In this document: positions 12,601 through 63,959 of the stretch, piece after piece
Layout of the letters: each line of letters begins with the position of its first letter
Numbering within the stretch: the stretch's first letter is position 1
Source of the DNA: a virus
Virus record (IMG/VR): IMGVR_UViG_3300042387_000725
Location: 1 to 64,000 of that record
Length of the DNA stretch: 64,000 bases
Reading direction: 5' to 3' (one strand)
The notes under the pieces: generated by a model
Seen by the model: only the letters and a program-made list of their open reading frames with translations
What the model was told of the DNA's origin: nothing
Databases searched by the model: none
Translations under genes and position numbers: made by a program

Positions 12601-12922
12601 TATTAAGGTTTTCTAAACCTTTTTGGTTCTTGGCAAGAAGAACTATATGGAAGTAGTTGACATCAAGTGGACCTACCCTTTCGGACTTATCCCTTTTATC
12701 ATGTCTATCTAATGCCAAATAGCCTTCTATGCCAAGAATTGGCTTGATGCCCTTTGCTTTTGCAATTCGGTACAGCTCCCGATGCCCAGATAAGGTTCCG
12801 TGATCTGTGATAGCCAATGCTGGCATACCAAGTTCAACTGCTCGGTCAATATATTCTTCTGGAGTAGCAACACCATCCATCAATGAATAGTGTGTATGGA
12901 CATGCAAGCCTACGTAATTCAC
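9647..12922 (-). CDS. dnaE: DNA polymerase III alpha subunit (DnaE-type)
   Basis: This 1,091-residue replicative C-family polymerase begins with a PHP domain (HVHTHYS at residues 7-13, then TDHG), which suggests it may carry its own metal-dependent proofreading or structural site. The palm shows PDIDSDI near residue 420 with the catalytic aspartates and GRGSAAGS just before it. Helix-hairpin-helix sequence and an OB-like domain (IMLGMIKSIKRGKGWSRVEFLDKTG) follow. It starts with GTG at 12922, the only start that keeps the PHP motif. No clamp, clamp loader or separate exonuclease gene is visible in the window, so it probably borrows the host's. Confidence 0.95.
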   Translation of the reverse strand: MNYVGLHVHTHYSLMDGVATPEEYIDRAVELGMPALAITDHGTLSGHRELYRIAKAKGIKPILGIEGYLALDRHDKRDKSERVGPLDVNYFHIVLLAKNQKGLENLNKLNEISWTDGFYRKPRIDFEVLDQYGDGLIVLSACQGGLIAKAIENEEYAFAKEKVQWFKNRFKDDFYIELMPHNPKNINDELVALAKAFDVKVVVTPDCHHADTSQKEIQEMMLLLNTHGKVQKDSTFDKSKKIDNMMERLDYLYGADRQMSFRTFDIHLLSYEEMKSAMAEQGHTDEEMFISSIEIADKIEDYDIKSGLDLLPVQYKKPMQELKTLAIEGLTERGLESNQEYLDRLEEELKIIGEKNFGPYFLVVRSMLNWAKKEGIMVGPGRGSAAGSLLCYALGITDIDPIKHGLLFFRFINPDRNDFPDIDSDIQDNRRDEVKDYLVRQYRHVASIATFLQFKDKNIVKDVSRVLNIPLADANKVNKQIDTWDEYCTSRNAQWFREKYPEVEVYGEQLRGRIKGTGIHAAGVVTSKDPIFRYAPMETRSVTGSDERIPVVAVDMGEAENIGLIKIDALGLKTLTVLKDCIDIIKDREGTKIDLLKINMDDANVYSMLSDGYTKGVFQCEAAPYTNLLVKMRVKNLEELAASNALVRPGAMNTIGKDYIAIKHGRQNPEYKHQILKSFTEETYGCILYQEQVMQACVHLGGMSMSEADKVRKIIGKKKDAKEFDEFKDRFVSGASAYISPNQALDLWHDFEAHAGYSFNKSHAVAYSTLSYWTAWLKYHYPLEFMYSLLKNEKDKDARTEYLIEAKRMGISIKLPHINESDIDFKIEGKGIRFGLSGIKFISDKIAERYMAARPFKSYAELEEFTFTKGNGVNSRALQALRIIGAATFEDSPRNDKEIKENLYEYLNLPEFNMTVPQHYYAYIQEAEDYEETGSFIMLGMIKSIKRGKGWSRVEFLDKTGSVGIFDDENTTIETGRTYLILVSDNRIVNAIPADSIKESKDALVKFLNYKQLPYKGEEQFVVSFKPRMTKAGKKMANLVVADAGRELHSVLVFPTAFSKAYMTIEEGNVYKVSLGKTKDGTVILEDVVNV

Positions 12923-12930
12923 CTAGGCGA

Positions 12931-13584
12931 TTACCAATCCATGTTTGTGGATGTAGTGCCTGGTGTGTCAAAGCCTAGATAAAAGGCTTCTTGTTCAGCA
13001 TAAGGAATCTTGTTGAGTGCCTTCTCTAGTGGGAATGGTTCAACTGTTGCCCAATCAAATGGTTCCTTATCTGGACCACCTGGAATAAGTGTGTATGATG
13101 TTTCAGTTCCCTGACCATTACGCTTCACCTTCCAAGTAAGATTTGAAATACTGCCTGTCTCCAGTGCATATTCACGAATAGTATTAAATGCAGATTGCTT
13201 GCTAACACCCATTGACCAAATAGCCACATATGGTGCTTCAATGCCGTCATCTACAAGTACATTGCAATAGAAGCGAAGACGTGCTCTCCAGCCAGCCTTT
13301 GGATCCTTGCGGTGCATCTCTTCTGCCCAGTCACGACCTTCTGTATCCATTGTGTCTACAGCCTTACGCTTATAGTCCTTTGGATTTGTGTGCTCTGAAA
13401 CTACAAGAGCAAGACCACGATCTGCATTATAGTTTGCTGAGTCTTCGTCAAGTTCTTCAATAAAGCGAATCTTTACTGACTGTCCATCAGCAAGCTTGAG
13501 CCAACGAACCTTGCTGCCTGTGCCTTCATACTTGGGCTTATCTACCAATGCGTTGATATTTTTTAGTCCCTTTACAATAGCCAT
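12931..13584 (-). CDS. Phage single-stranded DNA-binding protein (gp32-like)
   Basis: This 217-residue protein starts with a basic Lys-rich leader, then WLKLADGQSVKIRFIEEL. That pattern is typical of phage ssDNA-binding proteins of the gp32/OB-fold kind. RFYCNVLVDDGIEAPYVAIWSMGVSKQSAFNTIREY follows, also common in these proteins. It sits between primase and polymerase, as expected. The usual acidic tail is absent; the end is TTSTNMDW. AGGAG lies before the ATG. Confidence 0.75.
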   Translation of the reverse strand: MAIVKGLKNINALVDKPKYEGTGSKVRWLKLADGQSVKIRFIEELDEDSANYNADRGLALVVSEHTNPKDYKRKAVDTMDTEGRDWAEEMHRKDPKAGWRARLRFYCNVLVDDGIEAPYVAIWSMGVSKQSAFNTIREYALETGSISNLTWKVKRNGQGTETSYTLIPGGPDKEPFDWATVEPFPLEKALNKIPYAEQEAFYLGFDTPGTTSTNMDW

Positions 13585-13613
13585 TTTATTTTCTCCTATA
13601 TGTTTGTTATGTT

Positions 13614-14540
13614 TTATTTTAGCATGGCGATGATTGAATTGTCAAACTGGAACTCCAACCTTTTAATTGCCTCATCATCCATGTCGCCTATGTCTTTATA
13701 TTTTTTATCTAGCTGTATTACTGTAACAAGGTGGCCTAGTTTTTCAACTAGTTTATCTTTCATGATAGATCCAGCCTCATCATTATCTGCAACAAGCACA
13801 ACATTGTTGAAGTACTTTTCTAACAGTTTAATCTGTGATACAGATACGTTAGCACCCAGTGTTGCAACTGCTGGGAAACCTACTTGATCCAGTCTGATAG
13901 CATCAAATGATGATTCAACTACATAGACTGTTGTTGATGTTTTAACTCTGTGCAAGTTAAAAAGAATTTTACTCTTTGGAAGTCCTGGAGTATTTTTAAA
14001 ATCTTTACCTTCAACTGTTCTTGCAACAAAACCAATACACATTCCGTCTGGAGTGGCCATTGGTATTGTGACTGAATCTTGTTTTTCTGAATAGCCTAGA
14101 TTAAATTTTATCACAGAATCTTTTGTAATGCTGCGACCTTCAAAATATCTCATTGCCCTTGGTGATTCAAGTGCCTGATTATTTAATCTTTTAATTAGTA
14201 GTTCATCATACTGAACAAAATCTGCTGGAGCATATAAAGCTTTATCAATTACAGAAGATATATTTAATTCTTGCTCTTTGCTTTTAATATAGCGAACTGC
14301 CTCAAAGTATGTTCTATTTGACATAAACATAATTAGTTCAACTAGATTTTTAGTTACTTGACAGCCAAAGCAAAAGAACAATCCAGATTCTTTTGAAACT
14401 TCTCCTGCAGGTGTTCTATTATTATTGTGATAAGGACAAAAGATAATAAAGTCAGAGCCAAACTCTGCTTCAATGTCAATGCCTGCACCATTTAGCACAC
14501 GACGAATTTGATCTTCTGAATATATATCTTTACTTGCCAT
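13614..14540 (-). CDS. DnaG-type primase
   Basis: From the ATG at 14540 this encodes 308 residues. The open frame extends 40 codons further, but that part lies inside the helicase gene, and the 11-bp overlap favours this start. A CHC2-type zinc site is visible (C35, H38, C57, C60: CPYHNN and CFGC), as is a TOPRIM core (VVESSFDAIRL, later VADNDEAG). It synthesises primers at the fork together with the DnaB-like helicase encoded just upstream. It is shorter than bacterial DnaG, lacking the large helicase-interacting C-terminal domain. Confidence 0.9.
   Translation of the reverse strand: MASKDIYSEDQIRRVLNGAGIDIEAEFGSDFIIFCPYHNNNRTPAGEVSKESGLFFCFGCQVTKNLVELIMFMSNRTYFEAVRYIKSKEQELNISSVIDKALYAPADFVQYDELLIKRLNNQALESPRAMRYFEGRSITKDSVIKFNLGYSEKQDSVTIPMATPDGMCIGFVARTVEGKDFKNTPGLPKSKILFNLHRVKTSTTVYVVESSFDAIRLDQVGFPAVATLGANVSVSQIKLLEKYFNNVVLVADNDEAGSIMKDKLVEKLGHLVTVIQLDKKYKDIGDMDDEAIKRLEFQFDNSIIAMLK
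13616..13624 (-). promoter_or_regulatory. Possible extended -10 promoter before the SSB gene
   Basis: The minus strand reads TGCTAAAAT, 31 nt before the SSB ATG and overlapping the last codons of the primase gene. The -10 has one mismatch to TATAAT, so this is tentative. Confidence 0.35.
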
Positions 14541-46979: not shown

Positions 46980-47648
46980 TTATCTAAACATTGTATTATT
47001 TATATGGCTAATGTTTATACTATTTACATTAAAATGTTTAGGCAATGATGATACCCACAAAATAGACTGAGCAAGATCATTTGCGGTCAGTGCATCATTT
47101 TTCTTTTCTGCCTGAGTATCAATTGTTCCAGGACATATCTCAGTAATCTTAATGCCATATGCTGGAAACTCTAGTCTCATTGTTTCCAATAATCCAATTT
47201 CTCCCCTTTTAGCATTTGTATAGTTACCGCCACCAGGATAGGGAACGTTTCCACCTATTGATGTTACAAAAATTATTGTTGGAGAATTTGATCTTTGCAT
47301 ACAAGGTACAAATAGCTGAGAAATATACATTGGGCCAGTTACGTTTATGTCATAAGCTCTTCTAAAGTTTTCTGGAGTTTCATTAATAATTTGTGTTGGC
47401 CCAGCTCCTCCACCTGCATTATTTACTAAAAGATCAAGCGTAATGTCTTTGTATTTTTCAAAGAATAACTCTATGGCTTTTGAGTCTGTTATATCTAGTT
47501 GATAAACCTCAACGTTATCAGATACAAGATCAGATACCTTAGATAGGTCTCTTGAAACAGCAATAACCTTGTAACCATTTTCAGATAGTAGTTTTACTGT
47601 TTCTAGTCCAACGCCCTTGCTTGCCCCAGTTACAATTGCTGTTTTCAA
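46980..47648 (-). CDS. Short-chain dehydrogenase/reductase
   Basis: This 222-residue Rossmann oxidoreductase has all the classical SDR signatures: the nucleotide-binding TGASKGVG (7-14), NNAGG (76-80), the catalytic Ser130, and Y143-x3-K147 (YTNAK). Substrate is unknown; SDRs act on sugars, lipids and steroids. Translation must start at TTG (47648), since an in-frame TAA precedes it directly. It is the last gene of the modification island, so it might act on a carbonyl or sugar linked to that pathway, but this is only context. Confidence 0.9.
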   Translation of the reverse strand: MKTAIVTGASKGVGLETVKLLSENGYKVIAVSRDLSKVSDLVSDNVEVYQLDITDSKAIELFFEKYKDITLDLLVNNAGGGAGPTQIINETPENFRRAYDINVTGPMYISQLFVPCMQRSNSPTIIFVTSIGGNVPYPGGGNYTNAKRGEIGLLETMRLEFPAYGIKITEICPGTIDTQAEKKNDALTANDLAQSILWVSSLPKHFNVNSINISHINNTMFR

Positions 47649-48383
47649 TTACATACTCTGATTTTTATTAATGTCCATATTGTTATGAATCCAATGGCCA
47701 GGTATCATATACTTAACCCCAGATTTTACAATATGGGCTGTATGAAAATACGGTGGAAATGCTGGAAATATAATAACACTATTTTCTTTTGGCTTTAGCC
47801 CAAAATCAATTGCTTTATTTTCAACAGATATATCATAGTCTAAATCTACAGCTGGTGCTGATCCTTTAGAAAAACCGTCAGCACTAGTCCATCCTCCATC
47901 ATAATCCTTTAACTGGAAAGATATTTCTCCGCCTTCACAGTCATCATTTAGATACATAACTAGAGAGTATCTTAAAGTTTTGTCTCCATCTAGTTGGTCA
48001 AAATGTGCACCCATTCCCATTCCAGTGTTGTATTTCTTTATATTAAAGGTTGGAAAAAGTCTTGGCTCATCAAAATCACCCAATGAAGAAGCATAGTCCT
48101 TACATACATTGTACATTGTAGTCATGATAGCGTCATATATATATTTGCTTTTTTCCGCTACCTCACCAGTAAGGTTATTTATCGCATTGATGTCAAAAGT
48201 TTTTGTCTCTCCATAAATAAAAGTTTTATCGTTAGAAGAAGTCCAGGGATTCCAAACGTTTACCCCTGACTCTGTGTATTGCTCAAGAGTATCTAACTCT
48301 TTCCATACTTTTTTAAAAGTATCAAAGTCTTCAATAGCATCAGTGTAGTAGTATACTTTTGGGTCTAGTTTTTCTTTATTCAT
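47649..48383 (-). CDS. 2OG-Fe(II) dioxygenase 1 (prolyl 4-hydroxylase-like)
   Basis: This 244-residue double-stranded beta-helix oxygenase uses 2-oxoglutarate, O2 and Fe(II) to hydroxylate a substrate. Its iron triad is intact: H127-x-D129 (GAHFDQ) and H214, with K224 to bind the 2-oxoglutarate carboxylate (SGVKYM). LVMYLNDDCEGGEISF is the strand pattern seen in all seven copies. Substrate unknown. It is the most diverged in length, with an insertion before the distal His. Confidence 0.9.
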   Translation of the reverse strand: MNKEKLDPKVYYYTDAIEDFDTFKKVWKELDTLEQYTESGVNVWNPWTSSNDKTFIYGETKTFDINAINNLTGEVAEKSKYIYDAIMTTMYNVCKDYASSLGDFDEPRLFPTFNIKKYNTGMGMGAHFDQLDGDKTLRYSLVMYLNDDCEGGEISFQLKDYDGGWTSADGFSKGSAPAVDLDYDISVENKAIDFGLKPKENSVIIFPAFPPYFHTAHIVKSGVKYMIPGHWIHNNMDINKNQSM

Positions 48384-48394
48384 ATTTTTCTCCT

Positions 48395-49054
48395 CTAGTA
48401 CTTGTTATTAACGTAAAAATCTTTTACTTTTATAAAGGCTGTAATGACATGTCTTATTGGACCATCCCCCACATGCTTTACTCCATGCTCATGTTCTGGG
48501 TCACCTGGAAAAACAAGCAATGACCCTGGTTTTGGTCTTAACGTGATGTCAAAATTTTTAAAGAAAAGTTCTCCATCAGAATAATTTTCATTAATATATA
48601 GGATTGCAGCATATCTAATAGATGGGTCTGTGTCTTGATCCACATGAGATTTTAATTCAACACCAGTTTGCATTCTTTGTATAGTTCCCATGCCACCTAC
48701 TATTAAATTTTCATCTGCTCTTTTAACTAAATCTTGTATTCTTTCTTGAAGTACTCTAGCTATATCATATTGCTGAATTTCAAGAATTTTATCATCCCAT
48801 CCTTTAGTAACTTCATATTTGCCTTCATCAACTAGCTTTTGAACATCCGTTGTACCAAATTTTTCTAAACAAAACTCAGCCAAACTTTTCTGATAAGCAA
48901 CGTGCCACTCTGTTTCTTCTGTGGAGTTAATTATGTCTAATACTTGATGCAGTTCTTCTTTAGAGATAAAATCTTCTACTAGCAAAATGCTATCTGAAAT
49001 ATCTACAACGCTATAGTTGTCCTCAATAAGTTCTTTTCTTAAGAAACTACTCAT
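48395..49054 (-). CDS. 2OG-Fe(II) dioxygenase 2
   Basis: This 219-residue protein has HVD at 137-139 and a distal His at about 190 in the run EHEHG, with R201 as the likely 2-oxoglutarate ligand. Facial triad and fold signature (AAILYINENYSDGELFF, RPKPGSLLVFPGD) are complete. It overlaps the third dioxygenase gene by 8 bp. Compared with its neighbours the distal region is slightly rearranged (VGDGPIRHV). Substrate unknown. Confidence 0.88.
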   Translation of the reverse strand: MSSFLRKELIEDNYSVVDISDSILLVEDFISKEELHQVLDIINSTEETEWHVAYQKSLAEFCLEKFGTTDVQKLVDEGKYEVTKGWDDKILEIQQYDIARVLQERIQDLVKRADENLIVGGMGTIQRMQTGVELKSHVDQDTDPSIRYAAILYINENYSDGELFFKNFDITLRPKPGSLLVFPGDPEHEHGVKHVGDGPIRHVITAFIKVKDFYVNNKY

Positions 49055-49805
49055 TGCGATTTAACTCCTCTATCTTATACTTATTACCATCTTTATCTAT
49101 TTTATAGCCCTTTTTAATAAGGTCCTGCCACTCTGCTCTTTCAATCTCTTGCTGTTCTCTTGTTGCTTTCATTTCTGCTGCCCAAGCATCTCTTAGCTCT
49201 TGCGGATAAGCATCTTCTTCTCTGTCATCCCAGAATGAACCTATGGTGTATCTTACTCCGCTTTCAATTAAAGTAACTTCATGCATATTGTTAAAGCCAC
49301 CGTCAAAGACAGCAAGCATTCCAACTTTTGGCTCAATTTCTATTTCTTGTCCTGGGAATCTTAATAGTCCACCTTTAAAATTATCATTTAGATAAAGGAA
49401 CCCAGCATATCTACTTCTTGTAAATGCGCCAGAGTTTCCTTCAGCATCAGTATTGTCTGAGTGTACTCTTGCGTATGCTCCAGGTTCCCATTTTTGTGTG
49501 TGATATCCAATTTTACAAATTGTTTTTGGATCAAGATCGTGAACTGAAGCAATTGCTTCTGGCATTGTTTTTTCAATGTCTGAAAAAATAGTTGGAGATA
49601 ATCCAGCATCAAGTACCTCTTGATCGTTATCTTGTGGAAGAACAGAAGAATATGATTCATAAAATGAAATAGGCATCCATGACAACTTTCCACCTTCTGC
49701 TTGAGCATCAAGTGCCTGAATCATTTTTTTACAATCTTCATCACTAATAAAGTTTTCATAAATAACAATATCTTTTGTGATTCTTTTTTTATTGTTTAGA
49801 TTCAT
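49047..49805 (-). CDS. 2OG-Fe(II) dioxygenase 3
   Basis: This 252-residue protein shows H115-x-D117 (ARVHSDN), H175 (NMHEV) and R185 (SGVRYT). FLYLNDNFKGGLLRFPG matches the prolyl-hydroxylase-like strand block. The last 45 residues are a charged helix (EMKATREQQEIERAEWQDLIKKG) absent from the others and perhaps a partner-binding tail. ATGA overlap couples it to the next copy. Confidence 0.9.
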   Translation of the reverse strand: MNLNNKKRITKDIVIYENFISDEDCKKMIQALDAQAEGGKLSWMPISFYESYSSVLPQDNDQEVLDAGLSPTIFSDIEKTMPEAIASVHDLDPKTICKIGYHTQKWEPGAYARVHSDNTDAEGNSGAFTRSRYAGFLYLNDNFKGGLLRFPGQEIEIEPKVGMLAVFDGGFNNMHEVTLIESGVRYTIGSFWDDREEDAYPQELRDAWAAEMKATREQQEIERAEWQDLIKKGYKIDKDGNKYKIEELNRNE

Positions 49806-50668
49806 TTTATCCTTCTTTCTTTGTCAGCGCTAATTTTATTTGGATTATCTAGTCTAAATTCTTCTATAATAGATGGTTGCATTTCTGCCCAAACTTCTTT
49901 ACCAAACTCTTTTTCTTTTTCAAACCACTCAGGACTGCCTACAGAATATTTCATCCAATACATTCTAGAAAGATACTTGTTTGCTCCCGTTGCAGGCATT
50001 ACGCCATGTATGTAAACAGATCCATTTTTTGTTAATACATCTGGGTGACCTGATGGGAAAATCAAAAAATCTCCAGCCTTTGGCTTATACATGTATGCTT
50101 CACCATCAACAATAAAGTCTATCTCTCCACCTTCATAGTCGTCATTAAAATAACAAAGAGCAGTTATTGCAAACTTATACCCTGGACTTGTTATTGGCTC
50201 ACGAATATAATCAGAATGATAGGTCATTGCTAGTGGGTCTTCAATATCTGTTTTATATCTTGCTATAGATGGTCCAGTCATTTGCCATTCTTCCATAAGT
50301 TGACCATTATTTGCTAATACCGTTTTTGTTTTGTCAAGTTCTATACCATTACGTAAAGCATAGTCTTCAGTAGCTAAATAAAAATTTTTAAAAAGTTCAA
50401 GGATTGCAAGCTTTTGAAGTTCTTGTTTTTCTGTTTTTGTTTCTATTTCCTCAATTAAGTCAATTCTTAAATTAGATTGGTAACCCTTAAACATAGGACT
50501 TAAATATTCTCCGAAATGAGCCCATTGAGTCCATGGACTAAAAATACCATCTTCTTCTCCTGTAGAATTTTTTAACAACTCATAGGTTTGTTCTATATTC
50601 TTAAAAAGATTTTTATATACAAATATTTTAGGATATATTTCAATGGCTTCTAAAGTATTTTGACTCAT
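49802..50668 (-). CDS. 2OG-Fe(II) dioxygenase 4
   Basis: From the ATG at 50668 (ATGA overlap with the upstream gene) this encodes 288 residues, the longest copy. H151-x-D153 (TYHSDYI), H221 (YIHGV) and K231 form the active site. CYFNDDYEGGEIDF is nearly the consensus of the family. An extra N-terminal half, with TKTEKQELQKLAILELFKNFYLATEDYAL, may form a substrate cover. A longer frame begins upstream at 50716 but overlaps the neighbour by 52 bp. Confidence 0.9.
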   Translation of the reverse strand: MSQNTLEAIEIYPKIFVYKNLFKNIEQTYELLKNSTGEEDGIFSPWTQWAHFGEYLSPMFKGYQSNLRIDLIEEIETKTEKQELQKLAILELFKNFYLATEDYALRNGIELDKTKTVLANNGQLMEEWQMTGPSIARYKTDIEDPLAMTYHSDYIREPITSPGYKFAITALCYFNDDYEGGEIDFIVDGEAYMYKPKAGDFLIFPSGHPDVLTKNGSVYIHGVMPATGANKYLSRMYWMKYSVGSPEWFEKEKEFGKEVWAEMQPSIIEEFRLDNPNKISADKERRIK

Positions 50669-51345
50669 GGCTTTCTGTCTCCTGTATGTGCCGTAATTTC
50701 CCAAAAAAATGGACATGTAAATCTTAATCCACTTTTTATTTCACTTACTCCATGGATATAGTTTTTATCTCCTGGGAAAAAATAAGCAGCACCTTTCTTA
50801 GGTTTAAATTGCACACCTTGCAGAGGAAAATATAATTCTCCCCCTTCATAATCATCATTTAAATAAAACAAACTTGAAAGATCATAGTTTGGAAAATCAT
50901 TTGGAAGTCCAGCATCTGGTCCTTCATGAAGTTCTTTGTCTGCATGAGGCTTTTGAAATTGCCCTGGAAGCCATTTAACAATTGTAGTTCCAGTTGGTAC
51001 AACTTCTACCTTATAAAAATCTTCAACAATTGGTTTTAGTCTTTGAAATAAACCAGCTATAACTGGGGCAATTCTAGGATCATTTTTGTCAAGACTAGGA
51101 GTTGTTGCTACTCTATCTTTCCAGTAGTCTGAGTCATATACAACAGTGCCGTTTTCATTTACATGGCTTTGTGTTACATCCCAGATAGTTAGAGATTTTG
51201 CTGCTTTTTCTAAAAACTCAATCTCTTCTTCAGTCATGAAGTTTTCTAGCTCTACAATCATGTCTTTGCTGTCTCCAAACCATCCAGATGGGGTTATTGA
51301 CGGAGATCTTTTTACTACTGTATATTCATCTTTGTTTTGTTCCAT
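50665..51345 (-). CDS. 2OG-Fe(II) dioxygenase 5
   Basis: This 226-residue protein has H134-x-D136 (KPHADKE), H198 (YIHGVSEIKSG) and R208. YLNDDYEGGELYFP and PKKGAAYFFPGD are classic for phage prolyl-hydroxylase-like enzymes. Its own promoter lies 6 nt before the ATG, so it can start a transcript for copies 5 to 1. Confidence 0.92.
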   Translation of the reverse strand: MEQNKDEYTVVKRSPSITPSGWFGDSKDMIVELENFMTEEEIEFLEKAAKSLTIWDVTQSHVNENGTVVYDSDYWKDRVATTPSLDKNDPRIAPVIAGLFQRLKPIVEDFYKVEVVPTGTTIVKWLPGQFQKPHADKELHEGPDAGLPNDFPNYDLSSLFYLNDDYEGGELYFPLQGVQFKPKKGAAYFFPGDKNYIHGVSEIKSGLRFTCPFFWEITAHTGDRKP

Positions 51346-51347
51346 TT

Positions 51348-52070
51348 TTATATTATATCATCCTTCGTATTATCTATTACTCCAAGCTTTATGGTTTTAG
51401 CCTCATGGCTACCCAAAGATTCACCTTTTTCATTTACTGCATTTCTATACCAGTCTGTCCATTTTCCTACCTTGTTAATTTCTTGTGCTGCATCTCCATA
51501 AGATTTATTTGCTGCTTGTTTTTTTCCATCTGGATCCGTGTATTTGTTAATTTGAATAACAGTATTATTTAAGCTTGTTAAAGAGATAGGAATTATTGTT
51601 GCAAGTGGGGTTCCTGCCTTTATTGTTGTAATTTTATTTGCTGCTTTTGCTTTTGCTTTAATTGCTAATGGCAGAGGATTGTCATAAAAAGATGTACTTA
51701 TAACGTTAGACATAGTTTCAAACTCGTCGCTATAATAATTGACTGGATTTATTGTAATAATGCTAAAATTTTCTTCTGTTCTAAAGTATAGACCAGTATC
51801 AAAACTTATTGATGACTGACCTCTTCCAGAATAAGCTCTATCTGGTCCAAAAACTTTTACATTGTCTGGACGCTCACTATTGATCCCATCCCACTCAAAA
51901 CATACATCTTGTTTACAAAAAATACTCCAACCAATTGAATTTGCCTGTGTTACAGGAAAACAATGGTATGCATGTTTTTCTGATGAGACATCCATCCAGT
52001 CTCTCTTAATAGACATAGGAGAAATATCAAATAAAGAGTGTGAGTCTTTTTCAATTATAACATTTATCAT
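51348..52070 (-). CDS. DUF6065-like protein A
   Basis: This 240-residue protein has AYHCFPVTQANSIGWSIFCKQDVCFEWDG, then FSIITINPVNYY and IKAGTPLATIIPI. The last pattern recurs in the other DUF6065-like protein of this cluster, and the two appear to be diverged paralogues. I recall this family (DUF6065) beside dioxygenase genes in phages. No catalytic site is evident. It overlaps its upstream neighbour as TAATG. It may be a partner, substrate carrier or scaffold of the modification system. Confidence 0.6.
   Translation of the reverse strand: MINVIIEKDSHSLFDISPMSIKRDWMDVSSEKHAYHCFPVTQANSIGWSIFCKQDVCFEWDGINSERPDNVKVFGPDRAYSGRGQSSISFDTGLYFRTEENFSIITINPVNYYSDEFETMSNVISTSFYDNPLPLAIKAKAKAANKITTIKAGTPLATIIPISLTSLNNTVIQINKYTDPDGKKQAANKSYGDAAQEINKVGKWTDWYRNAVNEKGESLGSHEAKTIKLGVIDNTKDDII
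51352..51360 (-). promoter_or_regulatory. Leaderless-type extended -10 promoter for dioxygenase 5
   Basis: The minus strand reads TGATATAAT, then ATAAAA, then the ATG at 51345. The 6-nt gap puts the expected transcription start at the A of the start codon. Confidence 0.6.
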
Positions 52071-52726
52071 TAGTCTGCCTCTGCGCTATACATTTCTGGA
52101 GTATGAAACTTTTTACTGTAATCAAGCATTGTAACAATAGAGTACTTGAGTCCAGATGTTACTGGCATTGCCTGATGAGGATACATGTAGTTTGATGGAA
52201 ACACAAAAAGATCTCCTGCTTCTGGCTTAACCTTTAGGTTTTGAAGTCTAAAGAATAACTCTCCACCCTCATAGTCATCATTTGGATATCCTACAAGTGA
52301 TACAGTACAGTTATATGAGAATCCATGATCATGGTGTTCCATAAAGTGCTGTCCTGGACCATACTTAATAAAATTAAATGCTTCCCAATATTTTAGGTTA
52401 TGAATATTGTGCATCTTGCAATAGTCTTCTACTACTGGAGACTTAACATCGTATAGATCTTGCCATAGTGACTGAAGGTTTAAGCTTGTTTCACTTGTAT
52501 CATTTTCAATGTCTGTTTTCTTGAACTTAAAATCATTGCAATCTCTGTAGTCTGGCATTAATTGTTTATATCCAACATAGGCAGGCTGCCAACTGTATCC
52601 AGTCGTATCTCCTACTGGCTTAAGGTTTTCTTCAATTCTTTTAATTACTTCAATTTCTTTTTTAATTACACCTTTGTAACAGAATATTCCATTTCCAAGA
52701 TTTTGTTTTTCTGTCCACGTTTGCAT
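52070..52726 (-). CDS. 2OG-Fe(II) dioxygenase 6
   Basis: This 218-residue protein has H131-x-D133 (MEHHDHG), H184 (MYPHQAM) and K194 (SGLKYS). Together with copy 7 it forms a closer pair: both have FSYNC or PAYNC followed by TVS, and an identical DDYEGGE. This suggests a more recent duplication. Its gene has its own promoter, 55 nt upstream. Confidence 0.92.
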   Translation of the reverse strand: MQTWTEKQNLGNGIFCYKGVIKKEIEVIKRIEENLKPVGDTTGYSWQPAYVGYKQLMPDYRDCNDFKFKKTDIENDTSETSLNLQSLWQDLYDVKSPVVEDYCKMHNIHNLKYWEAFNFIKYGPGQHFMEHHDHGFSYNCTVSLVGYPNDDYEGGELFFRLQNLKVKPEAGDLFVFPSNYMYPHQAMPVTSGLKYSIVTMLDYSKKFHTPEMYSAEAD

Positions 52727-52781
52727 TTATTGCTCCCTCTTTATATTTTTAGACTATATTGCTATCTAACAGTTTACCATA

Positions 52782-52790
52782 TTTATAGCA
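52782..52790 (-). promoter_or_regulatory. Extended -10 promoter before dioxygenase 6
   Basis: The minus strand reads TGCTATAAA in the 74-nt gap between the radical SAM gene and dioxygenase 6. A GAGGGAG ribosome site precedes the ATG at 52726. The rest of the gap shows nothing else. Confidence 0.5.
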
Positions 52791-52800
52791 ATTATATTTA

Positions 52801-53736
52801 TTATTCCTTCCAAACTGCATGAACACAGCTTGTGCAAAAATTTTCATAAGAATTTTTAATCATATTTTTGCGTTCTTGGCTTTCCCATATTTCCTTTATT
52901 GGCTTTTCATTAATATTAGCAAATATTGTTTCAAACTCATAGTCATTGCAGCATAAGAATACATCTCCATTAGCATTTATATGTATCCAATCTTCAGTCC
53001 TACTTCCCATATTATTGCAGCCAATAACCTTGCCCTTTTTATTTATTTTATTTTTCATTATTTTACGAGTATCTAAATTTCCTGCTCTGTCAACTAAAGA
53101 TATATTTGGAAATATTCTAATTTCTGGGAATGACTCTTTCATTTGCTTAAGAGCAATTGCTGTATCTCCAGTATTATCATCTAAATTTATTTCAGGAGCA
53201 TTTTCCAATAACTCTGTATATCTAAGTGAACTTTGGTTAATTCCATTAACTTGCATTGAAATTTTTTCAACAGGAAAATTATCTATAGCGTATCTAATGT
53301 TGTCCATAACTCTTTGGTGCATTTTTTCAGGTTTACCTGTCATTTTTGACCAGGTAGCAGCATCAGCGGAAGGTGTATTAAAGTGGATTAAATCAACTAC
53401 ATCACTATATTCTTTGATAATGTCCATCTTTTCTTTTGTTAATGGAGAACCATTTGTTAGTACAACTGTTCTAACTCCATGCTCTCTAAACAAATCAAGC
53501 ATTTCTTTAAAATGCTCATAAAGCAAAACTTCGTTATAGTGTGCTGTATAAATAAAAGAAAACTGTGGATCTACAAAATCTCCAATACCAGCCTTTAGCT
53601 GTTCAAGAATAGACCTAATTGTTTCAATAGACATGGTTTTTCTACCAATTGCTGGGTTTCCATCATATGCTACAGGACAAAACCAACAACCAAGATTACA
53701 CAAACCATTAGGATCTAATTGAACTAACTTTATCAC
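52801..53736 (-). CDS. Radical SAM/SPASM enzyme
   Basis: This 311-residue enzyme carries the canonical 4Fe-4S motif CNLGCWFC (C13, C17, C20) and a radical SAM barrel with TVVLTNGSPLT. The C-terminus has a SPASM-like cysteine set (GCNN, FLCCND, FCTSC) expected to bind auxiliary Fe-S clusters. SPASM proteins commonly modify peptide or protein side chains, so it could install a C-C or C-S crosslink or epimerise residues in a virion or host protein. It begins with GTG at 53736. It is unusual in phages and here sits among seven dioxygenases. Confidence 0.9.
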   Translation of the reverse strand: MIKLVQLDPNGLCNLGCWFCPVAYDGNPAIGRKTMSIETIRSILEQLKAGIGDFVDPQFSFIYTAHYNEVLLYEHFKEMLDLFREHGVRTVVLTNGSPLTKEKMDIIKEYSDVVDLIHFNTPSADAATWSKMTGKPEKMHQRVMDNIRYAIDNFPVEKISMQVNGINQSSLRYTELLENAPEINLDDNTGDTAIALKQMKESFPEIRIFPNISLVDRAGNLDTRKIMKNKINKKGKVIGCNNMGSRTEDWIHINANGDVFLCCNDYEFETIFANINEKPIKEIWESQERKNMIKNSYENFCTSCVHAVWKE

Positions 53737-53747
53737 ATTGTTACCAT

Positions 53748-54515
53748 CTATCTATATTCTCTTCTTGACCATACTTTATTTTTATATATACCGCCATCTG
53801 GTTGACGATAAAATTTTGAATTATCAACCATATTACCATATATCTCTGATTGATTCAAAATCTCTATATTATGATCCCAGTTTTCTCTTTTAAATGGCAA
53901 AATCTGAAGATACGGAGTTCCTGCTGGAATTGTTCCTTCCCAACCATCTGCAATAAAAAATGGAAAACTTCCAAGAAGATGAACTTTATCTGAATCAACA
54001 ACACCAGTGGTATTTAAAAATGGAAGATCAAATCTATTCATTGGTGTCATGAATAGTGCACTATATCCTTCTGGTAGTTTTAATCCCCAGTCAGCAGACC
54101 ATGCAAAATGATACTTGTAGTATCCATGCGGATGTTCAAACTGTGGCATAGGAGGTCTCTGAGTACAAAAGTCTTGATACTTAGAGTCTTCAATCTTTAC
54201 ATTAATTATACCCTGCGAGTTTTTAAAAAATGTTAAGTCACAAGGGGTTTTAAAAACATATCCAGTTGAAAATGCATCCATGATTGCAGGACATGCTTTC
54301 CATGTTGGAATCTTTCCATAATCATCAGTAGTTCCCTCTTTTGGAAATGGACAAACCTCTTTTGGCGCTTTATAGTATTCCCCATTTGGCATCTTTGCAA
54401 ATCTATCTGCATCTTTGTACCAGTCTGGAATTTCTTTTTGTGTTGGAACAGGAACAGAAATACTTTCTTTATTTAGCCATGGCCTATAAGATTTAAATGT
54501 AGCTATTAGTGACAC
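53748..54515 (-). CDS. DUF6065-like protein B
   Basis: This 255-residue protein (GTG start) has WKACPAIMDAFSTGYVFKTPCDLTFFKN, YSALFMTPMNRFDLPFLNTTGVVDSDKV and IPAGTPYLQILPFKRENW. It shows limited similarity to DUF6065-like protein A, mainly the position and form of AGTP..(I/L)(I/L)P and the segment before it. No catalytic motif is visible. It lies between the radical SAM gene and dioxygenase 7 and overlaps the latter. Confidence 0.6.
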   Translation of the reverse strand: MSLIATFKSYRPWLNKESISVPVPTQKEIPDWYKDADRFAKMPNGEYYKAPKEVCPFPKEGTTDDYGKIPTWKACPAIMDAFSTGYVFKTPCDLTFFKNSQGIINVKIEDSKYQDFCTQRPPMPQFEHPHGYYKYHFAWSADWGLKLPEGYSALFMTPMNRFDLPFLNTTGVVDSDKVHLLGSFPFFIADGWEGTIPAGTPYLQILPFKRENWDHNIEILNQSEIYGNMVDNSKFYRQPDGGIYKNKVWSRREYR

Positions 54516-55243
54516 TACTTATGACCTAGCTCGTTAATATCTGTCATTACCACAACACAGTACTTTGTACCTGACTTCATCGGAAGAGATGCATGCTCAT
54601 AAATATAGTTTGAAGGAAATACTGCTATATCTCCAACTCTTGGTGTATGAACATAGTTGTCTAGTCTTGGGAACTTTATTTCTCCACCTTCGTAATCATC
54701 ATTAATATAGATTACTGCAGATACTGTGCAATTGTAGGCTGGACCATGATCAGCATGAATATTAAAGTGTGTTCCTTCTCCTTCATACTTTACAAAATTA
54801 AATGCTTCATAATAAACAACATTGATTCCCCAGTATGCAGCGTAATCATCAATGCAGTACTTTAATTTTTGATAGATCTCTTCATGAAGATCTAAAAGTT
54901 CTGAGTTTGTTTCATCTCTTGGTCCTAAGTTTTCCTGCTTGTACTTAAAGTCTACACAGTCTCTAGCCTTCTTGATAGGAGTTGTAGAATTAGTTACCTG
55001 AGCTTCTGACCATTTATGTTTTTTGTCACCAGACAGATTTGACTCAAGAATATTTATGTATCTATCAGCATCTGCTTTAGAAAATGTATCATGATATACA
55101 TGCAGGCCTAATCCAAGATTCTCAGCGACAATGCCATCTTTGAGCTGTCGTGGAGGGATTCTGTTTGATGCTGTTTCTGATCTATCTTTAGTAAACCAGT
55201 AGTTTGAGTTTTCATCTTGTACTTGTAAGTTATTATATTCCAT
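54515..55243 (-). CDS. 2OG-Fe(II) dioxygenase 7
   Basis: This 242-residue protein has H163-x-D165 (NIHADHG), H217 (YEHAS) and K227 (SGTKYC) complete. VIYINDDYEGGEIKFP is close to copy 6. A 40-residue N-terminal extension is peculiar to this copy. It is the first dioxygenase gene of the island in transcription order, following the glycosyltransferase gene. Confidence 0.92.
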   Translation of the reverse strand: MEYNNLQVQDENSNYWFTKDRSETASNRIPPRQLKDGIVAENLGLGLHVYHDTFSKADADRYINILESNLSGDKKHKWSEAQVTNSTTPIKKARDCVDFKYKQENLGPRDETNSELLDLHEEIYQKLKYCIDDYAAYWGINVVYYEAFNFVKYEGEGTHFNIHADHGPAYNCTVSAVIYINDDYEGGEIKFPRLDNYVHTPRVGDIAVFPSNYIYEHASLPMKSGTKYCVVVMTDINELGHK

Positions 55244-56042
55244 TTGTTTCTCCCTTTTTTTCTGTTAAATTTAATTGCTTAGCCATATATTTTTTAGTTA
55301 AATACCCAATTAAAGTATTTTCTTGTGGAGTAGAAGACATGCTTGGAATTTCTACCTGATGTCTTTTCCAAGAAGAAGAAAATAAAGATACAGCAACACT
55401 ATTACGTATTAATTTTTTACTATATTCAAAACTTATTGGATCTAAAAAGCTATCTATATGTGAATACCTTATTGGATTAAACACACTCTCTTCTTTGGCA
55501 AAACTTGTTAAATTGTTTTTTTCAATTATTTTTGTAAGTAGCTCTGGACCATTTGCAATTTGATCCTTTTGTGATCCATTTGGTATAAAAACAAAATTAT
55601 CAATTAATTCATTTAAAATCTTTTTATCATTTATATACAAAATACCATTGCCAATTCTTACTGGCTCTTTTGCTGGGTAAGGCTTGTCTATAAGAAATCC
55701 AAAAAGATATGGTTCTGGATCTGGCCACTCATCTTTTAAACAGACGGAATCAGAATCTGTCCAAATAAGATTTGTGTTTTTTAACATATGCAATCTAAAG
55801 AAATCAGCAAACTGTGCATGCCCACCTCCAAAGAGTTCATTATCAAATTTTGTTAGAAATATATCTTTTTCTAATACAATTTCATTGGCATCTTTTTTTA
55901 TGGCACCCTCTGGTACCTCAATAGACATATCATATAAATATATATTTAGTTCATGTCCATGATAAATATATGAATTCCATGAGAGTTGCTGTAACAATGT
56001 TGGTTTATTTCCAAACCACAATGTACCAAACTTTAAACCCAT
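55233..56042 (-). CDS. DXD glycosyltransferase (GT32-like)
   Basis: This 269-residue protein has LKFGTLWFGNKPTLLQQLSWNSYIYHGHELNIYLYD, then QFADFFRLHMLKNTNLIWTDSDSVCL. The last part is the nucleotide-sugar DXD motif with the preceding FADFFRLHML helix typical of GT32/Och1-like and alpha-galactosyl-type enzymes. It would transfer a sugar to a protein, lipid or glycan. The frame starts at TTG upstream, but I chose the ATG at 56042. With a hydroxylase gene next to it, it could glycosylate hydroxylated residues; this is inference. Confidence 0.78.
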   Translation of the reverse strand: MGLKFGTLWFGNKPTLLQQLSWNSYIYHGHELNIYLYDMSIEVPEGAIKKDANEIVLEKDIFLTKFDNELFGGGHAQFADFFRLHMLKNTNLIWTDSDSVCLKDEWPDPEPYLFGFLIDKPYPAKEPVRIGNGILYINDKKILNELIDNFVFIPNGSQKDQIANGPELLTKIIEKNNLTSFAKEESVFNPIRYSHIDSFLDPISFEYSKKLIRNSVAVSLFSSSWKRHQVEIPSMSSTPQENTLIGYLTKKYMAKQLNLTEKKGETNGI

Positions 56043-56070
56043 AAGTTTATGCCCCAATCTTATTTAATCA

Positions 56071-56101: not shown

Positions 56102-56383
56102 TTATTTATTTTTTAATGTATTTAGTTCGTCTTCTAGTTTTTCTATTTTTTGCATTAAGATCTTTAAAACTTCTACTGCATAAACAGAAAGAATGTCATA
56201 CCTAAGAGCCATAGGCTTATCTTCTTTATCTAAGATAACCATATACTTTAAAGAGTCTACCTCATTAACCTCTTCTGCTATATATCCTAGTTGCCTAATA
56301 TTTTTAGGATCATTATTATATATCCAGGTTACTGGGTTTAAAGCTTGTATGGCTTTTTCAAAATCAATTTCAGTTGACCCCAT
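56102..56383 (-). CDS. Stand-alone S74 intramolecular-chaperone domain
   Basis: This 93-residue protein matches the core of peptidase S74 (endosialidase-type) tail-fibre chaperone domains: ALNPVTWIYNNDPKNIRQLGYIAEEVNEV, then MALRYDILSVYAVEVLKILMQKIEKLEDELN with its terminal coiled coil. Such domains trimerise and self-cleave from fibres. Here the first strand of the domain (SSARFKHSI) lies in the C-terminus of the preceding gene product, separated by stops, so the domain is split. Confidence 0.8.
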   Translation of the reverse strand: MGSTEIDFEKAIQALNPVTWIYNNDPKNIRQLGYIAEEVNEVDSLKYMVILDKEDKPMALRYDILSVYAVEVLKILMQKIEKLEDELNTLKNK

Positions 56384-56401
56384 GTTATTTAACTACCCCT
56401 T

Positions 56402-57250
56402 TTATGAATTGATGTTTACAACCCTCATTATACTGTGCTTAAACCTCGCAGATGAGTATCCAAATCTTGGGAAGAACGGGAAGAATGGAGGGAAGAACGG
56501 TGGGAAGAACGGTGGGAAGAACGGTGGGAAGAACGGGAAGAAAGGTGGGAAGAACGGTGGGAAGAACGGGAAGAACGGGAAGAAAGGTGGGAAAAATGGA
56601 GGGAAGAACGGGAAGAATGGTGGGAAAAATGGAGGGAAAAATGGTGGAGTTGTTGTAATAGAACCAGAAGCATCTGAAGTTTCAGAATTTCCATTAGCAT
56701 TTGTTGCATAAACTGTGTATGTCTGAGAAGTGCCACCTTCTTGAGCTACTGCAGCGCTTAGAGTTGATCCTGATACTGTTGCTCCCTTAGAATCAGAAGA
56801 TGCCCAAGTATATCCAGTAATCGCAGAACCACCATTTGCTGGGGCAGACCAAGAAACGTTATCTTGATTAACCTGTGTAGTTACAGTTGGTGCTGAAGGT
56901 TTAGCTGGAACTGTTGTTGCAGTAATTGAAGCAGATTCTGACGAAGCAGTAGATGTTCCTGCAGCATTTGTTGCTGTTACTGTAAATGTATAGGCAGTAT
57001 TAGATTGAAGACCAGTTACAGTGACTGGAGAAGTTGCACCAGTACCTGTAAAACCTCCAGGAGATGAGGTAGCTGTAAAAGATGTGGCTGCAGGAGAAAG
57101 TGCTGGTAGAGAGAAAGAAACAGTTGCTGCACCATTATTAAATGCTCGTGCAGTTCCAACATTTGTTGCTGTAACATCTGTTGGAGCTAATGGTTCTAAG
57201 AAGTCATTTGATGCCTGAGACTTCTTACCCGCTTTTTTCCCTGCTGCCAT
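56402..57250 (-). CDS. Fibronectin-III protein with C-terminal PPFF repeats
   Basis: This 282-residue protein begins MAAGKKAGKKSQ and contains two fibronectin type III-like domains (about 20-110: YTFTVTATNAAGTSTAS; about 112-200: TYTVYATNANGNSETSD). Residues 202-261 consist only of Pro and Phe in units PPFF or PFF, with 16 FF pairs. The end is RFGYSSARFKHSIMRVVNINS, whose SSARFKHSI looks like the start of an S74 chaperone domain. It is paralogous to 62901-63959. It is presumably a virion fibre or decoration protein exposed to the host. Confidence 0.8.
   Translation of the reverse strand: MAAGKKAGKKSQASNDFLEPLAPTDVTATNVGTARAFNNGAATVSFSLPALSPAATSFTATSSPGGFTGTGATSPVTVTGLQSNTAYTFTVTATNAAGTSTASSESASITATTVPAKPSAPTVTTQVNQDNVSWSAPANGGSAITGYTWASSDSKGATVSGSTLSAAVAQEGGTSQTYTVYATNANGNSETSDASGSITTTPPFFPPFFPPFFPFFPPFFPPFFPFFPFFPPFFPPFFPFFPPFFPPFFPPFFPPFFPFFPRFGYSSARFKHSIMRVVNINS
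56468..56647 (-). repeat. Tandem repeat coding for (P)PFF units
   Basis: On the plus strand this is about 180 bp of near-perfect 9- and 12-base units such as GGGAAGAACGGT, all purine-rich. The codons are nearly identical between units, which suggests expansion by slippage or recombination, although the reading frame is kept. Confidence 0.9.
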
Positions 57251-62900: not shown

Positions 62901-63959
62901 TTAGTATCCTCCATATGAGAATCTTGGGAAGAATGGGAAGAACGGCGGAAAGAATGGAGGGAAGAATGGAGGGAAGAACGGCGGAAAGAATGGAGGGAAG
63001 AACGGTGGGAAAAATGGTGGGAAGAATGGAAAGAACGGAAAGAATGGTGGGAAAAATGGTGAGGTAACCACGAGATTAGATGGATCTGAAGTTGGAGAAT
63101 TTCCAATTGCATTTGTAGCATAAACGGTATATGTTTGTGAAGTATTAACTTCTTGATCAACTTCAACTGATAGCGTTGTTCCAGAAACTGTACCAGTCTT
63201 ACCGTCAGAAGATGCCCAGGTGTAACCAGTAATTGTAGATCCACCGTTTGCTGGAGCAATCCAAGAAACGATATCTTTAGATGATCCTGTTGTTACTGTT
63301 GGTGCTGCTGGTTTAGCTGGAACGGATGTGTCTGTAACATAAGGTTCGCTTGCAGAACTAAACAATCCAGATCCATTGGCATTATTTGCACAAATAGTAA
63401 AAGTATAAGATGTTCCTCCATTAAATGCACCAGTGGCAGTTAATGGACTATTTATTCCTGCCTGAGTTGTTATTGATACAGAAGGAGATGAAGCAATGGT
63501 ATAACCTGTTATTTCGCTTCCTCCAGATTCTGGGGGAGTAAATGTTAAGCTTACTACTGTATTGCTAACTTTAGTTGGTACACCAATGGTTGGAGTTCCT
63601 GGAACAGTAGTTGCTAGAATTGAATTAGAACTTATACTTGGTAGATAAGAACTTCCAAGTGAGCTATTTCCTTTTGATGTAAAAGTATATGAAGTATTAG
63701 ACTGTAATCCTGTAATTGTTAATGGTGAAGAACCTGTTGCTGTAAATGATCCTGGATCTGATGTTACCGTATAGCTTGTAGCTGGACCACCTGTTCCTGG
63801 AGCAGCTAAAGAAATAGTAGCAGATCCATCATTAAATGGACGATTTGTACCAACATTTGTTGCAGTTGGAACTGCTCCGTCTGGAAGATCATTTATTGGG
63901 GTAGTGTACTGTATCTTTCTTAATAATAAGCTTAGTAAAGATACTTTTGAAATTGTCAT
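62901..63959 (-). CDS. Fibronectin-III protein with C-terminal PPFF repeats, paralogue
   Basis: This 352-residue protein has three fibronectin type III-like units (about 25-110, 120-210, 215-295: TSYTVTSDPGSFTATG, GGSEITGYTIASSPS, SQTYTVYATNAIGNSPTSD). The third is clearly related to the second unit of the 56402-57250 product (AP.NGGS.ITGYTWASSD). Residues 301-345 are Pro and Phe only, in PPFF/PFF units with 12 FF pairs, then RFSYGGY. No S74 piece follows. It is presumably a virion decoration or fibre part. Confidence 0.78.
   Translation of the reverse strand: MTISKVSLLSLLLRKIQYTTPINDLPDGAVPTATNVGTNRPFNDGSATISLAAPGTGGPATSYTVTSDPGSFTATGSSPLTITGLQSNTSYTFTSKGNSSLGSSYLPSISSNSILATTVPGTPTIGVPTKVSNTVVSLTFTPPESGGSEITGYTIASSPSVSITTQAGINSPLTATGAFNGGTSYTFTICANNANGSGLFSSASEPYVTDTSVPAKPAAPTVTTGSSKDIVSWIAPANGGSTITGYTWASSDGKTGTVSGTTLSVEVDQEVNTSQTYTVYATNAIGNSPTSDPSNLVVTSPFFPPFFPFFPFFPPFFPPFFPPFFPPFFPPFFPPFFPPFFPFFPRFSYGGY
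62925..63059 (-). repeat. Second (P)PFF-coding tandem repeat
   Basis: This 135-bp array of 9- and 12-base purine-rich units (plus strand GGAAGAATGGTG and variants) is the counterpart of 56468-56647. The two arrays differ in unit order, so both have been rearranging independently. Confidence 0.9.

Follow-up and report, generated by a model that had tools for sequence, protein, structure and literature searches.

The stretch of DNA analysed here (the window) comprises 64,000 nt of the IMG/VR virus record IMGVR_UViG_3300042387_000725, which has 89,155 bases as a whole; coordinates are those of the window. It contains an island of 2-oxoglutarate (2OG)-Fe(II) dioxygenase genes located on the minus strand, downstream of a tail fibre gene that ends in a repeat of proline and phenylalanine. 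The seven open reading frames (ORFs) run from 55243 to 47649 in a single direction, mostly abutting or overlapping, and are, in transcription order, D7 (54515..55243, 242 amino acids, H163/D165/H217/K227, PF13640 42.3 bits), D6 (52070..52726, 218 amino acids, H131/D133/H184/K194, 49.6 bits), D5 (50665..51345, H134/D136/H198/R208), D4 (49802..50716, 33.4 bits), D3 (49047..49805, H115/D117/H175/R185, 35.9 bits), D2 (48395..49054, H137/D139/H190/R201, 42.3 bits) and D1 (47649..48383, H127/D129/H214/K224, 35.2 bits). All seven exceed the gathering score of PF13640 (33–50 bits vs 27) at the coordinates given in an earlier note on this DNA. The recomputed positions of the iron triad and the distal K or R are also the same as in that note, except for D4 (H167/D169/H237/K247), because its longest ORF begins 16 codons earlier.

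Three other genes are interspersed among D1–D7 on the same strand. They code for a DUF6065 protein (51348..52070, PF19541 88.3 bits vs a cut-off of 26.6), a radical SAM/SPASM enzyme (52801..53736, PF04055 52.7 bits and PF13186 44.7 bits) and a protein that we call P7084 (53748..54515, phrog_7084 120 bits). At the flanks are GT1, a DXD alpha-1,4-glycosyltransferase-like gene (55233..56057, minus strand, PF04572 24.2 bits vs a cut-off of 22.3), and a short-chain dehydrogenase (SDR; 46980..47648, minus strand, PF00106 142 bits). The Pfam matches agree with what had been proposed earlier for the radical SAM/SPASM enzyme, the glycosyltransferase and the SDR. The description of two DUF6065-like genes holds for 51348–52070, which belongs to PF19541, but 53748–54515 had no Pfam match. 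Both, however, match phrog_7084 and are therefore distant relatives.

What the earlier note overlooked is the adjoining repeat protein, the central clue to the substrate. Upstream of the island, PFF fibre 1 (56402..57250, minus strand) has two fn3-like domains followed by a C-terminal (P)PFF repeat of ca. 17 units, PPFFPPFFPPFFPFFPPFF..., i.e., 60 residues that are solely Pro or Phe. The codons of the repeat vary synonymously (CCA/CCG/CCT and TTC/TTT), which rules out a DNA-level feature; it is therefore the protein pattern that is kept. An occasional change of Phe to Tyr was found. PFF fibre 2 (62901..63959, minus strand, fn3 58.6 bits), outside the island as previously reported, carries fn3 domains and the same type of repeat at its C-terminal end with no dioxygenase directly behind. 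Between fibre 1 and GT1 there is a fragment of an endosialidase-type (S74) intramolecular chaperone (56102..56383, minus strand; PF13884 and tail fibre PHROGs) that belongs to the upstream fibre. This chaperone seems to be split, with the RFKHSI-type beginning of the domain at the end of the fibre and the remainder in a separate ORF ca. 20 bases downstream, an arrangement seen in two phages (window 56102–56420; L077:4150-4510).

Evidence connecting the repeat with the enzymes comes from sampling IMG/VR viral contigs by a DNA pattern for PFFPPFFPFFPP alone, i.e., making no use of the enzymes. This provided 119 loci, 85 of them continuing for 2.5 kb or more beyond the repeat; in 77 of these 85, a dioxygenase lay on the same strand within that distance downstream. 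As a control, the repeat (PT)6 sampled in the same way had a dioxygenase in 5/64 loci (Fisher 2e-26 vs PFF). In the pooled non-redundant set, the first dioxygenase behind the repeat was D7 in 104 of the 109 PFF loci having one. When tail fibres were sampled instead by the unrelated, N-terminal Mtd_N motif, a dioxygenase was found in the next 4 kb in 12/12 fibres with the PFF repeat vs 3/29 without it, and in whole records from this control (a small sample) at least six dioxygenases were present in 5/5 repeat-positive vs 2/12 repeat-negative cases. Of the latter two records, G032 turned out to have repeats of the PFFPFF and PPPF types, overlooked by the pattern, with D7 and D6 behind, and in the other (G025) the same fn3 fibre bears FSPFGV repeats and no PF13640 gene lies behind it. 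The repeat pattern matched only once among 84,980 bacterial and archaeal genomes, in a 5-kb contig of a Chitinophagaceae bin (L329). This contig is a phage piece with the order fibre-D7-D6-DUF6065-P7084-D5-D4, and its presence in a metagenome-assembled genome is probably either contamination or a clue to the host. Both the linkage to the repeat and the exclusivity of the repeat are direct observations. We found no earlier description of the island or the repeat in the literature searched, whose coverage was partial.

We also searched IMG/VR with P7084, obtaining 394 relatives, and compared the best 80 loci. Within the part covered by each contig, these 80 share the gene order fibre-D7-P7084-D6-DUF6065-D5-D4-D3-D2-D1-(SDR)-ribonucleotide reductase, with occasional losses of single genes, most often D4. 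The repeat gene, with its repeat, was present in every locus of this sample that reaches the fibre position. P7084 is the most conserved gene of the cassette (85–89% identity in the best 80 of 394), and the DUF6065 gene, also a core member, was found behind the repeat gene in 105/120 PFF loci. The other genes behave differently. GT1 has four full orthologues among ca. 150 related loci, the SDR, at the D1 end, is present in about half of the loci keeping D1 (46 full orthologues, median identity 76%, vs 90), and most PFF islands lack the radical SAM enzyme, which here represents an accessory insertion. Judging from this distribution, the radical SAM enzyme, the glycosyltransferase and the SDR are variable additions to the cassette; the first two are rare in PFF islands and were discarded as part of the core. 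The earlier note had taken the whole island as one dedicated pathway ending in sugar addition. Of this proposal, protein hydroxylation rather than base modification is supported. Sugar addition within the island is not supported in the form proposed, as GT1 is rare, and the radical SAM enzyme, GT1 and the SDR fall outside the conserved core.

P7084 has homologues (25–32% identity) in tailed viruses of the haloarchaea Halorubrum and Haloarcula, e.g., HF2 and HSTV-2, located near the end of the tail module. In the two haloarchaeal viruses inspected there was no annotated dioxygenase beside the homologue; therefore, P7084 may have a role connected with the tail and not with hydroxylation. No sequence relative of P7084 was found in the PDB. 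Its AlphaFold2 model (pLDDT 79) had a weak likeness to the dUTPase/dCTP-deaminase beta-fold (best E 1e-3, TM ca. 0.3 by query length) that we did not take as functional evidence. DUF6065 was not mentioned in the literature searched.

All seven dioxygenases are old and intact. The active-site motif was preserved in 98/98 full-length orthologues of D1, 91/91 of D2, 107/107 of D3, 96/98 of D4, 140/140 of D5, 160/161 of D6 and 155/157 of D7, i.e., 847/852 over the seven families. The dN/dS values against the nearest orthologue were between 0.03 and 0.19 (with dS saturated for D7). By these measures all seven active-site sets are clearly maintained by selection, in agreement with the previous remark that none looks decayed. 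In a maximum-likelihood tree D1, D3, D4 and D5 each formed one group and D6 and D7 were sister groups, with a few distant strays; D3, D4 and D5 fell on one side of a branch. The separate orthologous clades across phages rule out seven recent duplicates. The intactness and conservation of the set are directly established, and the tree and substitution rates indicate that the seven genes are ancient, orthologous and under purifying selection.

The enzyme family is also established, and the profile and fold comparisons put the seven nearest to collagen-type prolyl 4- and 3-hydroxylases and lysyl hydroxylases, not AlkB or TET. A profile of each D family was compared with all PDB chains. The top matches were prolyl 3-hydroxylase 1 for D2 (E 0.0045), prolyl 3-hydroxylase 1 and the Bacillus prolyl 4-hydroxylase (P4H) for D3 (E 1.4e-5) and D5 (P4H at E 5e-5), with E values of 1e-5 to 1e-4 over these two families, Bacillus P4H (6e-4) followed by procollagen lysyl hydroxylase for D6, and Bacillus P4H (7e-6) and LH3 (1e-3) for D7. 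Weak matches were found for D1 (transmembrane P4H, E 0.068) and D4 (Bacillus P4H, E 0.065). The likeness to prolyl hydroxylases is thus clear for D3, D5, D6 and D7, fair for D2 and suggestive for D1 and D4 (E ca. 0.07). The AlphaFold2 model of D5 (pLDDT 85) had as top PDB matches in Foldseek BaP4H, the Chlamydomonas P4H, vCPH of the chlorovirus PBCV-1 and PHD2 (E 2e-10 to 4e-9), and human P3H1 was also among its fold matches. No AlkB or TET structure appeared among the PDB profile matches of the seven families or in the 50 best folds for the D5 model. D6 and D7 are single-domain proteins without the fused glycosyltransferase domains of LH3 and mimivirus L230, and LH3 was only a weaker match. 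Since the nearest solved relatives are P4H, prolyl 3-hydroxylases and lysyl hydroxylases, and none is a nucleic-acid dioxygenase, the nearest known activity would be the hydroxylation of protein proline (or lysine).

Similar associations were found behind other repeats. Relatives of the radical SAM enzyme (74–85% identity) sit in a different cassette that has a single dioxygenase of a separate clade. In many loci this sister cassette comprises a tail protein with Pro-Thr or Pro-Ala repeats, a small ORF, the dioxygenase, the radical SAM enzyme, a GlcNAc transferase of PF11397 and an NAD epimerase (L011-L030, e.g., L013:3508-9249, with PF11397 at 123 bits in L013). The type of repeat tracks the enzyme set, PFF going with the D7 clade and PT with its own dioxygenase clade plus the PF11397 transferase, although the Pro-Thr cassettes were sampled via the radical SAM gene, so that this link is partly ascertained, and (PT)n sampled blindly was mostly without dioxygenases. 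The sister module parallels the prolyl hydroxylation of Skp1 and its subsequent glycosylation, of which Gnt1 carries out the first step (see below). This analogy supports the view that hydroxyproline is produced by these phages and sometimes receives a sugar.

Other variants were observed in L331 and L330. At L331:6048-8688 a long protein of INTINTINT repeats, with a Hint/intein-like C-terminus recognized by eye, is followed by two dioxygenases related to D6/D7. At L331:15148-18554 a homologue of the PFF fibre with an FSPFGV-like repeat is followed by a sulfotransferase-like gene and by two further proteins with possible 2OG-type motifs, of which the one tested had no Pfam match. The fibre homologues at L330:1079-2008 and 12533-13825 contain PPPF repeats, and their C-terminus resembles a Hint/intein domain (PF14890, with a score under the cut-off), which suggests a self-cleavage of the fibre end. 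It is conceivable, although we hold it with considerable doubt, that freshwater phages have a modular "repeat and writer" system in which (P)PFF, PPPF, (PT)n or INT repeats each come with their own hydroxylases, and some with sugar transferases, to give exchangeable virion surfaces resembling hydroxyproline-rich glycoproteins that alter adhesion or host recognition.

Taking all this together, we consider that the island is a dedicated post-translational pathway for the prolyl hydroxylation of a phage tail-protein repeat, with a probability of roughly two in three (0.68). As to substrate, residue, order of steps and benefit, we infer the following. The fibre and enzyme genes share direction and mostly abut or overlap, and so would probably be made together, late in infection and along with the tail genes. 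D1–D7 would then hydroxylate prolines in the (P)PFF repeats of the two fibres, 56402–57250 and 62901–63959, before or during fibre assembly. The seven paralogues could differ in the sequence context (FPF, FPP, PPF) or the ring position on which they act, or could be devoted to the second fibre, and P7084 and DUF6065 would be core partners that perhaps carry or chaperone the repeat. In the present phage, the radical SAM enzyme, the glycosyltransferase and the SDR might extend the pathway, e.g., by adding a sugar onto hydroxyproline. The unmodified repeat would be extremely hydrophobic; hydroxyls would add hydration, stiffness and sites for sugars, resulting in a stalk or adhesin that is hydrated, stiff or covered with sugars.

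Several points weigh against this proposal. Gene neighbourhood is not proof of an enzyme–substrate pairing, and the proposal gives no account of why seven enzymes would be required for a two-letter repeat. D1 and D4 resemble P4H structures only weakly. Eight of the 85 repeat loci have no dioxygenase nearby; of three of these searched over the whole record, L113 and L177 have six dioxygenases elsewhere, while the 38-kb record L146/G011 has the repeat but no PF13640 gene. The loci are also related by descent (82 D7 genes fall into 47 clusters at 90% identity and 26 at 85%, the number ranging from 26 to 62 with the identity cut-off); therefore, Fisher values overstate their independence. Finally, the P4H of PBCV-1 has a proven activity and an unknown role, and yet hydroxyproline was sought in the virions of this chlorovirus and not found (PMC7019647). 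The presence of the gene, therefore, does not prove modification of the particle.

Among the alternatives, the one that survives best, although we regard it as unlikely, is that the PFF fibre is indeed the substrate but that the enzymes target residues other than proline, or use a different chemistry (Phe beta-hydroxylation; Asn, Asp or Lys in the fn3 domains; cross-linking), with proline untouched or secondary. Seven diverged subfamilies do suggest more than one reaction, the profiles of D6 and D7 also match procollagen lysyl hydroxylases, and half of the repeat is Phe, occasionally replaced by Tyr. On the other hand, five of the seven profiles and the D5 model match prolyl hydroxylases best, and in the related phage with D7 and D6 behind a PPPF-repeat fibre it is Pro that is the shared element.

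It seems still less probable that the enzymes modify another virion protein, as happens in animal collagen and in mimivirus. A candidate would be the collagen-like Gly-X-Y tail protein of the record (PF01391; genome 66168–66881, L009:2165-2881), Lys/Pro-rich and itself a conceivable hydroxylase substrate. Collagen-like genes are found near many loci and the structural relatives of the enzymes include collagen P4H and LH3, but the cassette sits behind the PFF gene and not behind the collagen-like one. We give as little credit to an action on the host, on small molecules or on surface glycans, i.e., auxiliary metabolism, in a fibre region of the kind that collects accessory genes. The usual classification of phage 2OG oxygenases is under auxiliary metabolic genes (this is their PHROG category), and the SDR and the glycosyltransferase could act on sugars. 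However, dozens of lineages retain the order and the seven subfamilies along with one and the same kind of repeat protein, and a different Pro-rich repeat obtained by the same sampling came mostly without dioxygenases. DNA base modification of the TET/JBP type, the alternative raised in the earlier note, can be practically discarded by the profile and fold searches, since no profile reaches AlkB or TET structures (the Tet_JBP matches of D5, 17.4 vs 34.9 bits, and of D9, another dioxygenase of the record, 26.8 bits, are below cut-off), the genes sit within the tail module and it is a protein repeat to which they are linked.

The rest of the record contains more enzymes of this kind. A genome search gave nine PF13640 matches which, with D4, make at least ten dioxygenases. 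D8 (ca. 69.0–69.9 kb of the record, L009:5049-5852) has a weak CDGSH-like N-terminal match, and D9 (ca. 85.1–85.8 kb, L010:5085-5828) and D10 (ca. 86.2–86.9 kb, L010:6180-6854, with an H-x-E variant of the iron triad) are close to two further glycosyltransferase-like genes (PF04488 and PF11051; L010:4425-5108 and L010:7946-8776), forming a second small modification cluster. No PF11397 GlcNAc transferase was seen among the record proteins scanned with Pfam. The record has a tailed-phage gene set, including terminase, portal, head protease and a DnaE-like polymerase. The latter is closest to those of Streptomyces phages (ca. 53% identity), a hint that the host may be an actinobacterium.

Prolyl 4-hydroxylase genes are counted among the abundant viral auxiliary metabolic genes, and according to a recent survey their use by viruses "remains cryptic" (PMC9301287). 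The conserved physical link described here proposes a concrete protein substrate and, with it, a testable answer to the role of viral prolyl hydroxylases. If the proposal holds, lake phages that are very common should have tail proteins rich in hydroxyproline; the long repeat has neither Lys nor Arg and would thus escape standard tryptic proteomics. A ready hydroxylase set for a simple two-residue polymer would also be useful for materials work.

With regard to known systems, the 2OG-Fe(II) oxygenases of cultured phages (phrog_61) belong, by PHROG match, to the same broad family as D1–D7, but the 50,697 cultured phage records had no match to the radical SAM enzyme, the DUF6065 protein or the PFF fibre of the island. 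BaP4H, of Bacillus anthracis, heads the PDB profile matches of D3, D5, D6 and D7, alone or jointly with another, and is among the best folds for D5; it is a cellular enzyme, and we know of no tandem paralogues or PFF substrate for it. Plant hydroxyproline-rich glycoproteins and animal collagen have repeats of a few residues that are hydroxylated and often glycosylated by several enzymes, although they are non-viral and their repeat sequences are unrelated to PFF. In the sister module a P4H-like enzyme is accompanied by a GlcNAc transferase of PF11397, a family to which Gnt1 presumably belongs. In Dictyostelium, PhyA/P4H1 hydroxylates Skp1 at proline, and glycosylation of the resulting hydroxyproline begins with the GlcNAc transferase Gnt1 (PMC3515798). 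The Skp1 pathway concerns one proline of a cytoplasmic protein, whereas in the phages it would be a long repeat of a tail protein, and PF11397 is found in the Pro-Thr module and not in the island of the window. The closest viral parallel is vCPH of PBCV-1, which like the island enzymes is virus-encoded and has the P4H fold (as in the D5 fold match) and the iron/2OG residues. It is, however, a single gene of an algal virus, whereas the island belongs to a tailed phage and has at least seven paralogues next to a single repeat protein.

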